Assembly: GCA_007130865.1 (NCBI GenBank)
Contig: SLRR01000235.1
Span: 1-49,462 of the forward strand
From: Spirochaeta sp.
Lineage (GTDB): Bacteria; Spirochaetota; Spirochaetia; DSM-27196; Alkalispirochaetaceae
DNA length: 49,462 nt
Reading direction: 5' to 3'
This document shows, piece by piece, positions 36,661-42,006 of this stretch; within the stretch, counting starts at the first letter, position 1, and each line of letters starts with the position of its first letter. The translations under genes and the position numbers were made by a program. The notes beneath the pieces are model-generated. The model worked only from the letters and a program-made list of their open reading frames with translations, searched no databases and had not been told where the DNA came from.

Positions 36661-36750
36661 GTGCAGGCTCATCGCTCCGTGCCGGCTGACCGCTCGGCAC
36701 CGGCTGATCGATCACCCCAGGCTGACCGCTCGTCGCGGCCGGATAGCTCA
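36661..36750. repeat. Five degenerate 18-bp tandem units between thrC and the HD-domain gene
   Basis: Units at 36661, 36679, 36697, 36715 and 36733 share the core CNGGCTGACCGCTC-like pattern (for example GTGCCGGCTGACCGCTCG). The fifth contains the stop codon of the HD-domain gene. The array lies between two convergent genes and looks like a decayed minisatellite. Confidence 0.7.
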
Positions 36751-37881
36751 GCGCCGGACCGACTCCACGAACAAATCGAGTCTCCGCCGGTGTTCCCGAC
36801 TTTGCGCGTCCCAGCTGCCGGAGCGACGGTGGCGTTTCAGGTACTGCCGATATACCGTGCACGCCCGGTAGTAGCCGTCGGGTCCGCGGTAGGTGGAGCT
36901 GAGATCGCACCGGTAGAGCTCCAGGAGCAGCGGAAAGAGCGGCGACGCCATGAGGGGATCGCGCCGGTGACCGGGGAGACGTTCCAGGGCTCCCGGAATC
37001 ATATGATGCCGGATCAGCCACCGTACGTCCCGCACAAGATACTCGTTGAATCCGAGACGCCGGAGAATCTTCCCCGCCACGTCCGCGCCGATCTCGGCGT
37101 GCCGGTCAAACCGGCGGCCCTCGCGCTCGGTGGAAAACGGTTTACCGCTGTCATGCAGCAGTAGCGCCAGGCCCACGTTCAGGTCCCTGGTCTTGCGGTA
37201 CCGCAGCGTTTCCAGGGTATGACGCCAGACGTTGCCCTCCGGGTGGCCTTCCTTGCTGTGGTCCGTGCCGTCCATTTGCAGGAGTTCCGGCAGGACTGAT
37301 TCGATATACCCGTTGTTCATCAGTATTTCCAGCCCTCGCCACGCGTAAGGTCCCGTCATGACCTGGGAGAAGAGCAGTCGGTGGAACTCGGCGGGCAAGG
37401 TGGGATCGGGATGCCACGGTTCCAGCGGTGACTCCGGAACGAAGGGAAAGCGCGCACAGACGACCGCCGCCTCCAGGGGACCGAGACCGTCTACGGGAAC
37501 GGGATCCAGTCTCTCATCATAGGAACCGTTGCTCTGTTTGAGACGGGTCCGGGCTTCCTTGAGCAGGGGATACAGATCATGCGGGTCCTGGAACACCCGG
37601 CGCGTCGGGTCCCAGGTGAATTGCAGGAGCGGATGGTCCGACCGGTCAGGATCATCGCTCGTGCGGATCAGAAGATCTCCCTGGTCCCGGGGGACCAGGG
37701 CGTCCCAGGCGGGCAATCCCGGGAACTCCAGCGTTTCAAAGATACGCGCCAGTTCGGTCAACTCCGCATCCGTCTCCAGAGTTGTGCACGGTCCCGAGGC
37801 CATCCCGAAAAATTTCTCCAGGGCACTCACGCCTAGGAGTCGGTACTTCAAGGTGGACGGTTCGGGAAGGAGCGGTGTCAT
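36748..37881 (-). CDS. HD-domain protein related to tRNA nucleotidyltransferase C-terminal region
   Basis: A 377-residue protein. The C-terminal half has an HD hydrolase domain: EGNVWRHTLETLRYRKTRDLNVGLALLLHDSGKP with the HD pair, then RHAEIGADVAGKILRRLGF and WLIRHHM. The arrangement with GLEILMNNGYIESVLPELLQM before it resembles the part of PcnB/CCA-adding proteins that follows the nucleotidyltransferase domain. The nucleotidyltransferase head with its GxGxR and DxD motifs is absent, replaced by about 150 residues of unknown type. Likely a metal-dependent phosphohydrolase. A -10 box 7 nt before the ATG and no spaced ribosome-binding site suggest a leaderless transcript. Confidence 0.8.
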   Translation of the reverse strand: MTPLLPEPSTLKYRLLGVSALEKFFGMASGPCTTLETDAELTELARIFETLEFPGLPAWDALVPRDQGDLLIRTSDDPDRSDHPLLQFTWDPTRRVFQDPHDLYPLLKEARTRLKQSNGSYDERLDPVPVDGLGPLEAAVVCARFPFVPESPLEPWHPDPTLPAEFHRLLFSQVMTGPYAWRGLEILMNNGYIESVLPELLQMDGTDHSKEGHPEGNVWRHTLETLRYRKTRDLNVGLALLLHDSGKPFSTEREGRRFDRHAEIGADVAGKILRRLGFNEYLVRDVRWLIRHHMIPGALERLPGHRRDPLMASPLFPLLLELYRCDLSSTYRGPDGYYRACTVYRQYLKRHRRSGSWDAQSREHRRRLDLFVESVRR

Positions 37882-38559: not shown

Positions 38560-38664
38560 TGTTCCTTACCTCTCGCCGCTATTGTAACGGACTGCGCCGG
38601 AGTTTTCCCGTAATTAACCACCGGTGTGCCGGGTAGCAGGTTCGTGAAATCTTTCTTCGGAATC

Positions 38665-38673
38665 TGCTATTAT
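38665..38673 (+). promoter_or_regulatory. Extended -10 element of the EIIA-DAC gene, predicted leaderless
   Basis: TGC (38665-38667) followed by TATTAT (38668-38673); the ATG starts 8 nt later at 38682. The -35 at 38645-38650 (TGAAAT) is weak, as is usual with an extended -10. No ribosome-binding site is present. Confidence 0.5.
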
Positions 38674-38681
38674 TACGTAAG

Positions 38682-40022
38682 ATGCATCCAAAGATAGCCG
38701 TGCCGTTTACAATCCGTATTCTCCGGAGCATGAGCCGCGACGAGGTACTCCGTGTACTCGCGGAGGCGGTCGTGGCGGAACGCCAGGTCTCGACGGAACG
38801 CGTTTTCCGGGTTGTACTGGAACGGGAGTCCTCGCTCTCGAGTCGCGTATCGGAACGAATCGCGATGCCTCACGCGATTCTTGAAGAAATGGAAGACACT
38901 GTCCTGGCGTTAGGGATCTGTCCGGACGGTGTCGACTGGGACGGAAGAAACGATCCGGTGCAGTTGGTGGTGTTGCTGGTGGGACCGGAGGAACAGCATC
39001 TTCCAACGATGGCGTCGGTGGCCCGTTTTCTCCAGGTACCGGGTATCCTCGAGACGATCGTACAGTCCGGTTCGGAGTCGGCCGTACGCGCGCTGCTTGA
39101 CGGGGACGAGCGGTTTGCGGCTCCCGTGGAAGCGCGGACGTTGAGCGTTACCGCCGCGACCGTACACCACGCAGCGGAACTCGCCCGGGTACTGCCAAAC
39201 GTGCTGGTAGTAATATCCACGTCCAATCCCGGCATAATCCGCATGCTGGGGCCTCTGGCGGAACCGCCCCTGGTGTATCGTACGTACGTGGTGGGGCCGG
39301 GCCTGGATTCGGTGTCGGGAACGCAGCCCGCCGCCGGATCGGAACAAGATCACGCGGTGAAGGTGGTTTCGGCGGACCGGTTTCCCGAGGATCCTTACGG
39401 CCCTGCAGCGCTGACTCTTCTGCCGCTGCTGACAAGCGGCGTGATCCATCCCGGTTCAGAGGCGATACTTGTCTCCGGTCATAGTGAGAACGGGGGGCTG
39501 GACGCGGTTCGGCTCGTGGACGTATCCCGGGAACTCCAGGTTCCGGAGGGGTTTACCGAGTCACATCTGCCGCGGGGCGTTCGTCTGGAGGTGGTTCTTC
39601 GGGCTTTACACCTTGCGGCGGAACTGGGATCCCAGGGGCGGGAAGGAAAGTCCGTGGGTACGATCATCGTTATCGGCGACGATAAACGCCTCGCCAACTA
39701 CACGCAGCAGATGATCCTGAACCCTTTTACCGGGTATTCCGAGACGGATCGGAATATCCTCGATCCGGGGTTAAGTGAGACGTTCAAGGAACTGGCCAAG
39801 ATCGATGGAGCGTTTATCGTGAGCGGAGATGGTACGCTGCAGGCGGTGGGCACGCATCTGGCGGGGCGACCGGACCCGCAGGAGATGGAGGCCGGGCTGG
39901 GTGCCCGTCATGCCGCGGCGCTGGGAATAACCGCCTCGGCGGATGTTCTCGCGATTTGCCTCTCGGAGTCCACTGGGACGATTACGTTGTATCACAAAGG
40001 TCGCCACTTGATGCGGCGCTGA
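38682..40022 (+). CDS. PTS EIIA-like domain - PK_C-like domain - diadenylate cyclase (c-di-AMP synthase)
   Basis: A 446-residue three-part protein. Residues 1-140 are an EIIA domain of the fructose/mannitol/Ntr type (SERIAMPHAILEEMEDTVLALGI) with the phospho-acceptor His64 in the MPH motif, and VQLVVLLVGPEEQHLPTMASVARFL. Residues of about 150-300 form an alpha/beta unit (ATVHHAAELARVLPNVLVVIST ... LTSGVIHPGSEAILVSGHSENGGLDAVRLVDV) resembling the PK_C-like domain ahead of the cyclase in archaeal-type DacZ/CdaZ. Residues 300-446 are a DAC (DisA_N) domain with DGA at 375-377 (KIDGAFIVSGDGTLQAVG) and GARHAAALGIT at 407-417; the usual RHR reads RHA. It should make c-di-AMP from two ATP, if the altered motif allows. 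PTS phosphorylation of His64 may control it (inference). Confidence 0.85.
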   Translation: MHPKIAVPFTIRILRSMSRDEVLRVLAEAVVAERQVSTERVFRVVLERESSLSSRVSERIAMPHAILEEMEDTVLALGICPDGVDWDGRNDPVQLVVLLVGPEEQHLPTMASVARFLQVPGILETIVQSGSESAVRALLDGDERFAAPVEARTLSVTAATVHHAAELARVLPNVLVVISTSNPGIIRMLGPLAEPPLVYRTYVVGPGLDSVSGTQPAAGSEQDHAVKVVSADRFPEDPYGPAALTLLPLLTSGVIHPGSEAILVSGHSENGGLDAVRLVDVSRELQVPEGFTESHLPRGVRLEVVLRALHLAAELGSQGREGKSVGTIIVIGDDKRLANYTQQMILNPFTGYSETDRNILDPGLSETFKELAKIDGAFIVSGDGTLQAVGTHLAGRPDPQEMEAGLGARHAAALGITASADVLAICLSESTGTITLYHKGRHLMRR

Positions 40023-40470: not shown

Positions 40471-41178
40471 ATGTTGACTGAACCAATGCTGGATTCCTTA
40501 TTGAAGCTGCCGATCGACTCCGGATGGGTAATGGTGATGCGCCTGGGTTTCGCTATGGCAGCGGCGGCGGTGGTCGGCCTGGAGCGTTCCTGGAGCAACC
40601 AGCCGGCCGGGTTTCGTACACACATGGTACTCGCTATCGGTGCTGCCGGGGCGATGATGCTGTCGATGTTCCTGCCTATGCAGTTGGTTGATTATTCCCG
40701 AAGCGGCGATCCGGGCCGTATGGCGGCGCAGGTGATCAGCGGCATCGGATTTCTCGGTGGTGGTGCGATCCTCAAGTTCGGGTTCAACGTGCGGGGACTA
40801 ACCACGGCCGCTTCGATATGGACGATGTCCCTGATCGGTATGGTCTTTGGTGCGGGGATGTACGTGCTCGGCCTGGCGATGACGGTTCTGCTTTTCTTTG
40901 TTCTTCATACGATGGAGCTGGTGGAGGATCGATTCCTGGTGCGACGGGAGCTCCGGGTGATCACTGTGGTGTTCGACGCGGATGCGCTGGGTCCCAAGCA
41001 TATTACCCGGGCGATCCGCGATACGGTCGACGTGAAACGGATTTCCATCGAGGAAGCGGTGGAGGACGGTGAGACGCAGATGACAATCCAGTGTCGCATT
41101 TCGGAGCGGCAGAGTATCCGTAAACTGTTCGACCTGTTGAAGAGCCAGGGCAAGGTGAAGCGGATCAAGATCGATTAG
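40471..41178 (+). CDS. MgtC/SapB family membrane protein
   Basis: A 235-residue protein. Residues of about 15-150 hold the MgtC/SapB domain with four to five membrane helices: RLGFAMAAAAVVGLERSWSNQPAGFRTHMVLAIGAAGAMML, then GDPGRMAAQVISGIGFLGGGAILKFGFNVRGLTTAASIWTMSLIGMVFGAG, all hallmark segments. The C-terminal 80 residues are a soluble ACT-like domain (LRVITVVFDADALGPKHITRAIRD). MgtC proteins influence ATP synthase, Mg2+ adaptation and virulence in other bacteria; no Mg2+ transporter or riboswitch is adjacent here. Start ATG fits a leaderless message. Confidence 0.93.
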   Translation: MLTEPMLDSLLKLPIDSGWVMVMRLGFAMAAAAVVGLERSWSNQPAGFRTHMVLAIGAAGAMMLSMFLPMQLVDYSRSGDPGRMAAQVISGIGFLGGGAILKFGFNVRGLTTAASIWTMSLIGMVFGAGMYVLGLAMTVLLFFVLHTMELVEDRFLVRRELRVITVVFDADALGPKHITRAIRDTVDVKRISIEEAVEDGETQMTIQCRISERQSIRKLFDLLKSQGKVKRIKID

Positions 41179-41244: not shown

Positions 41245-41949
41245 TTACCGGCGGTTTCCCAGAAACCGCAGGAGAAAAAGAAAGAGGTTGATAAAGTCCA
41301 GGTAGAGCTTCAGGGCTCCCATGATCGAGACTCTGATGTAGTCGGCCTCGTCCGCGGACGCGCTCAGCTGTTGACTCCAGTTTTTGATGATCTGTGTGTC
41401 GTATGCGGTAAGTCCCATAAAGAGAAACACCCCGAAGAAGGAGATAACGTACTCGATCGTGGCGCTTCCGAGAAACATGTTCACCACCGATGCAATAATC
41501 AGTCCGATAAGCCCCGCGAACAGGTACTGACCCAGTCCTCCCAGGTCCCGGTTGGTTGTGACGGCGTAGACGCTCAGAGCACCGAACGTGGCGGCCGTGA
41601 CGAAGAACGCCTGAGCGATACTGGCTGCGGTGTACGCGAGAAAAATCACCGAAAGCGTCAACCCCGTGAGTACCGCGTACGCGGCGAACGCAAACGTTGC
41701 TACGCCGGGACTCATGACGTGGACCCGGGCGGACAGGAACAACACCAGTCCCAGCTGCCCGATGATCAACATGAAGAAGAGGCCCCGGTTGAGAACGATC
41801 GAACGGACAAGCTGCGGATTTCCCGCAACGTACATCGCCACGACACCGGTTATCGCCAGTCCCAGCGTCATCCAGATATAGACGTTTCGCAGAATGCTCC
41901 GTTCCGCGGTAGCGGCCCGGAACTGTTGCACATTTTCCTGTAAGGGCAT
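41245..41949 (-). CDS. Bax inhibitor-1 (BI-1/YccA) family membrane protein
   Basis: A 234-residue integral membrane protein with seven predicted helices. Seen: RSILRNVYIWMTLGLAITGVVAMYVAG at the amino end, the middle YTAASIAQAFFVTAATFGALSVYAVTT and GLTAYDTQIIKNW with the AYDTQ segment typical of the family, then ALKLYLDFINLFLFLLRFLG at the end. Members act as pH-sensitive Ca2+ leak channels or interact with FtsH (YccA). GGAGG lies 8 nt before the ATG. Its promoter reads TTGACT-N16-TAGTTT on the reverse strand. It is convergent with the mgtC-like gene. Confidence 0.95.
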   Translation of the reverse strand: MPLQENVQQFRAATAERSILRNVYIWMTLGLAITGVVAMYVAGNPQLVRSIVLNRGLFFMLIIGQLGLVLFLSARVHVMSPGVATFAFAAYAVLTGLTLSVIFLAYTAASIAQAFFVTAATFGALSVYAVTTNRDLGGLGQYLFAGLIGLIIASVVNMFLGSATIEYVISFFGVFLFMGLTAYDTQIIKNWSQQLSASADEADYIRVSIMGALKLYLDFINLFLFLLRFLGNRR

Positions 41950-41978
41950 CTTATATTCCTCCGTGAGATTGTGCTGAT

Positions 41979-42006
41979 AAACTACTACCTTGTAGACAAA
42001 AGTCAA
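41979..42006 (-). promoter_or_regulatory. Promoter of the BI-1 family gene
   Basis: TTGACT (42006-42001), 16-nt spacer, TAGTTT (41984-41979) on the reverse strand. Start near 41972 leaves about 23 nt with the GGAGG site. Confidence 0.45.

Follow-up and report, generated by a model that had tools for sequence, protein, structure and literature searches.

RESULTS AND DISCUSSION

The window, by which we mean the whole 49,462-nucleotide stretch of Spirochaeta sp. DNA that was analyzed, carries a gene that joins a PTS EIIA domain, a PK_C-like domain, and a diadenylate cyclase (DAC) domain in one reading frame. The account of this protein that we favor, and consider fairly likely, is that of a soluble cyclase, belonging to the DacZ superfamily and bearing an EIIA-Ntr/Fru-type head, which would be tuned by phosphate on the EIIA domain and by a ligand of the PK_C-like domain, would act beside CdaA, and would have a potassium/osmotic output. 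The gene and the features referred to below are as follows.

38644..38673, + strand: sigma70-like promoter candidate (weak) near the start codon; possible leaderless transcript
38682..40022, + strand: predicted EIIA-DacZ_P-like-DAC diadenylate cyclase gene (446 amino acids, stop included)
38727..39098, + strand: PTS_EIIA_2 domain, residues 16 to 139
38871..38873, + strand: His64, predicted phospho-acceptor
39105..39581, + strand: PK_C-like (DacZ_P-type) middle domain, residues 142 to 300
39630..40004, + strand: DAC catalytic domain, residues 317 to 441
39804..39812, + strand: DGA motif, residues 375 to 377
39906..39914, + strand: RHA motif (RHR equivalent), residues 409 to 411
39963..39971, + strand: Ser-Glu-Ser, equivalent of the (V/I)SEE metal/ATP motif, residues 428 to 430

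A single-frame gene found in several phyla

The frame begins with ATG, is open throughout by our ORF check, and has GC contents by codon position (0.70/0.45/0.69) like those of coding DNA; four congeneric genomes carry orthologs at 61 to 68% identity. A preliminary description of this DNA, made from the letters alone, held that the gene stands alone behind its own leaderless promoter. The first part is borne out. The surrounding genes are unrelated metabolic genes, apart from those for an HD-domain protein two genes upstream (36748-37881, − strand; its residues 220 to 298 match PF01966) and, downstream, an MgtC-family protein (40471-41178, + strand) and a Bax1-I family protein (41245-42006, − strand). 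As for the promoter, the end of GTGAAA-18-TATTAT lies 8 nt upstream of the ATG, and the congeneric ortholog L004 has TACAAT likewise 8 nt ahead of its ATG, but with two promoter-like sites found against 0.8 expected, the site is suggestive only.

The genome assembly is fragmented (303 contigs), and the frame might in principle be a chance or chimeric fusion between separate EIIA and DAC genes. We give this explanation practically no weight, because relatives with the identical single-frame architecture rule it out: protein and DAC searches of 100 related spirochaete genomes revealed an additional DacZ-like cyclase in roughly half of them (counted by eye, with some matches being fragments), single-contig genomes included, normally beside a stronger CdaA-like match, and many named genomes from a number of phyla share the architecture. 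Among named genomes, a scan confirmed 379 relatives, of which 80 were kept; the family occurs in Spirochaetota, Fibrobacterota, Kiritimatiellota/Verrucomicrobiota, Planctomycetota, Hydrogenedentota, and one Myxococcota bin. In one single-contig relative (G012:C1:1238392-1246855; L135), the CdaA-like and EIIA-DacZ-like genes lie ∼7 kb apart, and two genomes (G013 and G045) each have two DacZ-like cyclase matches plus CdaA. Gene neighbors appear to be lineage-local: we found none conserved across the family. An association with defense was considered and dropped, since it came down to a single weak PADLOC match to the cyclase's own DAC part.

Kinship with DacZ

The preliminary description read the protein as a soluble diadenylate cyclase made up of an EIIA head, a PK_C-like alpha/beta middle part, and a DAC domain, and the domain, profile, and fold matches support this reading. 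The DAC domain matches PF02457 at 74.4 bits (Pfam cutoff, 27 bits). Among the NCBIfam DAC models, it scores 80 bits with DacZ, followed by CdaA and DisA (34 bits each), CdaM (31 bits), and CdaS (27 bits). An AlphaFold2 model of the whole protein, built with 74 relatives, is confident (mean pLDDT, 85); searched with Foldseek, it matches EIIA-Ntr (1a6j) and DAC proteins (DisA, CdaA, and DacM).

The middle domain of this copy is diverged and has no direct Pfam match even at an E value of 10; its weak score is explained by the long branch on which the genus of the window lies in the family tree (a quick tree with several such branches). Its identity comes from fold and relatives: a separate model of residues 142 to 316 (pLDDT, 78) has pyruvate kinases as all 15 of its best PDB matches by Foldseek, and a profile built from the family's middle domains matches residues 346 to 455 of pyruvate kinase (E value, 1.7e-4). 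When 75 family members were scanned, 66 matched Pfam DacZ_P (PF21755, "Probable sensor domain DacZ_P"), some of them above its cutoff, and 25 matched PK_C; the DacZ_P match falls between EIIA and DAC. Fructose bisphosphate (FBP) looks unlikely as a ligand, since the loop that aligns with TQGAKSAR of pyruvate kinase, which we take to be FBP-related, is not conserved in the family profile.

DacZ and its kin are represented by NCBIfam NF041371 and by the Pfam models DACZ_N, DacZ_A, DacZ_P, and DacZ_T. Two relatives score 122 and 124 bits with the DacZ model, one of these matches also covering the middle domain, and an annotated Haladaptatus DacZ reaches 449.8 bits with NF041371. The window protein scores 80.2 bits against a curated cutoff of 430, which on sequence grounds makes it a member of the DacZ superfamily and not DacZ proper. 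The DacZ of Haloferax is active as a cyclase and depends on Mn, and the authors of that study proposed a single family for DacZ and CdaZ, with a PK_C-like domain that they noted in some bacteria as well (PMC6741144).

The preliminary description knew of no standard class of cyclase with an EIIA head. We depart from it here and treat the EIIA-DacZ_P-DAC architecture as a known kind, because its DAC domain is DacZ-like, DacZ_P is so frequent among its widespread relatives, and a DacZ/CdaZ family with a PK_C-like domain had already been proposed; we draw this from Pfam, and Galperin 2023 probably lists the architecture. The Pfam DacZ_A, DacZ_P, and DacZ_T domains reportedly derive from that article ("All DACs in a row"). 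A literature search for DacZ_P or EIIA-DAC returned nothing, Galperin 2023, the likely DacZ_P/A/T source, lying outside that search; the parts of the family are already cataloged.

Catalytic motifs

Motif counts come from an alignment of about 110 family members. The DGA motif is identical in all 110 sequences, Arg409-His410 in 108 of 108, and Ser428 and Ser430 in 106 of 106. Almost no relative has Arg as the third residue of the RHR equivalent: the residue is Ala in 77, Thr in 24, Val in 4, Arg in 2, and Leu in 1. RHH occurs in two haloarchaeal proteins that carry the DacZ annotation, one of which was confirmed to score above the DacZ cutoff. Full RHR thus does not define the DacZ branch.

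The motifs had been read correctly beforehand, along with the suggestion that RHA could mean altered activity. Taken to its end, that suggestion makes the protein a degenerate, inactive cyclase that serves as a c-di-AMP/ATP receptor or as a PTS signaling scaffold, and changing RHR to AAA does abolish activity in Mycobacterium tuberculosis DisA (PMC3328451) and M. bovis CdaM (PMC13022847). Those mutants, however, also lost the first Arg and the His, which are invariant here together with the other catalytic residues, and the third position is Ala, Thr, Val, or Leu in nearly all relatives and His in annotated haloarchaeal DacZ. In Leptospira CdaA, activity was abolished when either the Asp of DGA or the first Arg in GXRHRXA was substituted (PMC12974146), both of which the window protein keeps. 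We consider an inactive protein improbable: since RHA is the norm of the branch, it gives no reason to expect lost activity, and the protein is predicted to be a working cyclase.

The EIIA head and its PTS

The PTS_EIIA_2 domain scores 72.5 bits with PF00359 (Pfam cutoff, 27 bits), and its best PDB matches by both sequence and fold are EIIA-Ntr (PtsN) and fructose/mannitol EIIA. His64, already picked out in the preliminary description (AMPH), lies within the EIIA active-site block (AMPHA) and is conserved in 99 of 109 family members; Arg48, Glu49, Ala61, and Pro63 are its near-invariant active-site neighbors. Such conservation is as expected if phosphorylation matters.

The gene inventory of the genome makes the idea of a PTS input plausible. 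Family searches found five HPr, four EI N-domain, and ten EIIA_2 matches, approximate numbers given a 303-contig assembly with 5.4% contamination, and no match to the sugar permease PTS_EIIC (PF02378, the EIIC class searched); the PTS of this organism looks mainly regulatory. HPr is present in 35 of the 36 genomes carrying the EIIA-DAC cyclase family. The window enzyme would be a second cyclase, because the same genome has a canonical CdaA-CdaR (L001). A single 40-kb contig of this genome (G000:C33) bears CdaA-CdaR, an HPr-EI fusion frame of 857 amino acids, and a gene whose product carries two RCK_C domains (L001, L035, L128, and L141).

Loss of His64 in Fibrobacterota

One unexpected lead of the analysis is the loss of His64 in ten sequences, all from Fibrobacterota (L108, L110, L112, L113, L115, L117, L118, L120, L122, and L125), nine with Gln and one with Tyr. 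Their DAC residues are intact, and HPr is present in all ten genomes, so loss of the PTS was rejected as the cause. The quick tree calls for four changes of state at His64, some of which may be reversions; at least three fall on branches with good support. Fibrobacterota usually have the cyclase gene between acyltransferase and phosphoglucose-isomerase-like genes, followed by UPF0047 and SLOG genes (L117:6859-11757 and the L116 equivalents), and the His-bearing members L111 and L116 share this context.

These sequences show that one lineage can do without a phosphorylatable His. Gating by phosphate cannot be universal across the family, because the ten lack His64 despite having HPr, and phosphorylation is probably not required for catalysis, because they keep the cyclase residues. 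If catalysis proceeds without it, then the phosphate, where His is kept, would more likely hold the enzyme back or redirect it than activate it. The same losses, with DAC intact and HPr at hand, fit another reading, in which an active DacZ-type cyclase uses its head only to dock onto TrkA-like or other proteins, has no phospho-switch, and makes c-di-AMP at the target; EIIA-Ntr does often act through protein contact (PMC13104625). Pure docking, however, would not demand that His64 and its active-site neighbors be kept, as they are in all the other lineages, and we regard this reading as rather unlikely, preferring a head whose phosphate tunes the cyclase. With these natural His-to-Gln changes, forms that can be switched may readily be compared with forms that cannot.

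Proposed function

We infer the following scheme from the domains, conserved residues, and gene inventory. Two DAC domains would meet face to face and make c-di-AMP from two ATP. Phosphate derived from PEP would pass from EI to HPr to His64, where it may alter packing of the head and thereby tune dimerization of the cyclase; this gating is plausible on sequence evidence. A small metabolite bound by the PK_C-like domain would supply another signal. Without phosphate the enzyme is probably in its active or default form, and it would work alongside the genome's own membrane CdaA.

Its most likely output is potassium/osmotic control through RCK_C/TrkA proteins, because the genome encodes several RCK_C (TrkA_C) proteins, unphosphorylated EIIA-Ntr (PtsN) controls TrkA, YcgO, and KdpD in Escherichia coli (PMC13104625), and KtrA binds c-di-AMP through its TrkA_C domain (PMC7288161). 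No neighbor conserved across the family points to potassium or the PTS, and the c-di-AMP riboswitch RF00379 is absent from the genome. Since c-di-AMP and EIIA-Ntr act separately on potassium transport, the protein could join two known routes of potassium control. More speculatively, and in our view doubtfully, it might be a one-protein switch that reads lower glycolysis twice, through PEP phosphate on EIIA and through a metabolite on the pyruvate kinase-like domain, and writes the result as c-di-AMP, with Fibrobacterota repeatedly dropping the phosphosite and keeping the cyclase, in places beside a phosphoglucose isomerase gene.

Comparison with known systems

A fused EIIA head would provide a concrete, testable input, the PTS phosphorelay, to the rate of c-di-AMP synthesis by a DacZ-type enzyme. 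The window protein resembles the DacZ/CdaZ (DacY) enzymes of archaea and some bacteria in its DacZ-type DAC domain, its soluble nature, the PK_C-like domain directly ahead of DAC, and the lack of Arg at the third RHR position; it differs in its additional N-terminal EIIA_2 domain. CdaA, with CdaR, likewise makes c-di-AMP through a DAC domain, as predicted for the window protein, and occurs in the same genome, but it is membrane anchored, has a GTRHRAA motif, and lacks EIIA and PK_C domains. Proteins with DacZ_P (PF21755) include 66 of the 75 family members, whereas the window's own copy is too diverged for a direct match. EIIA-Ntr (PtsN) and fructose/mannitol EIIA have the fold and the active-site His block in common with the cyclase head; those proteins stand alone or are fused to permeases, whereas the EIIA domain in the window is fused to a cyclase.
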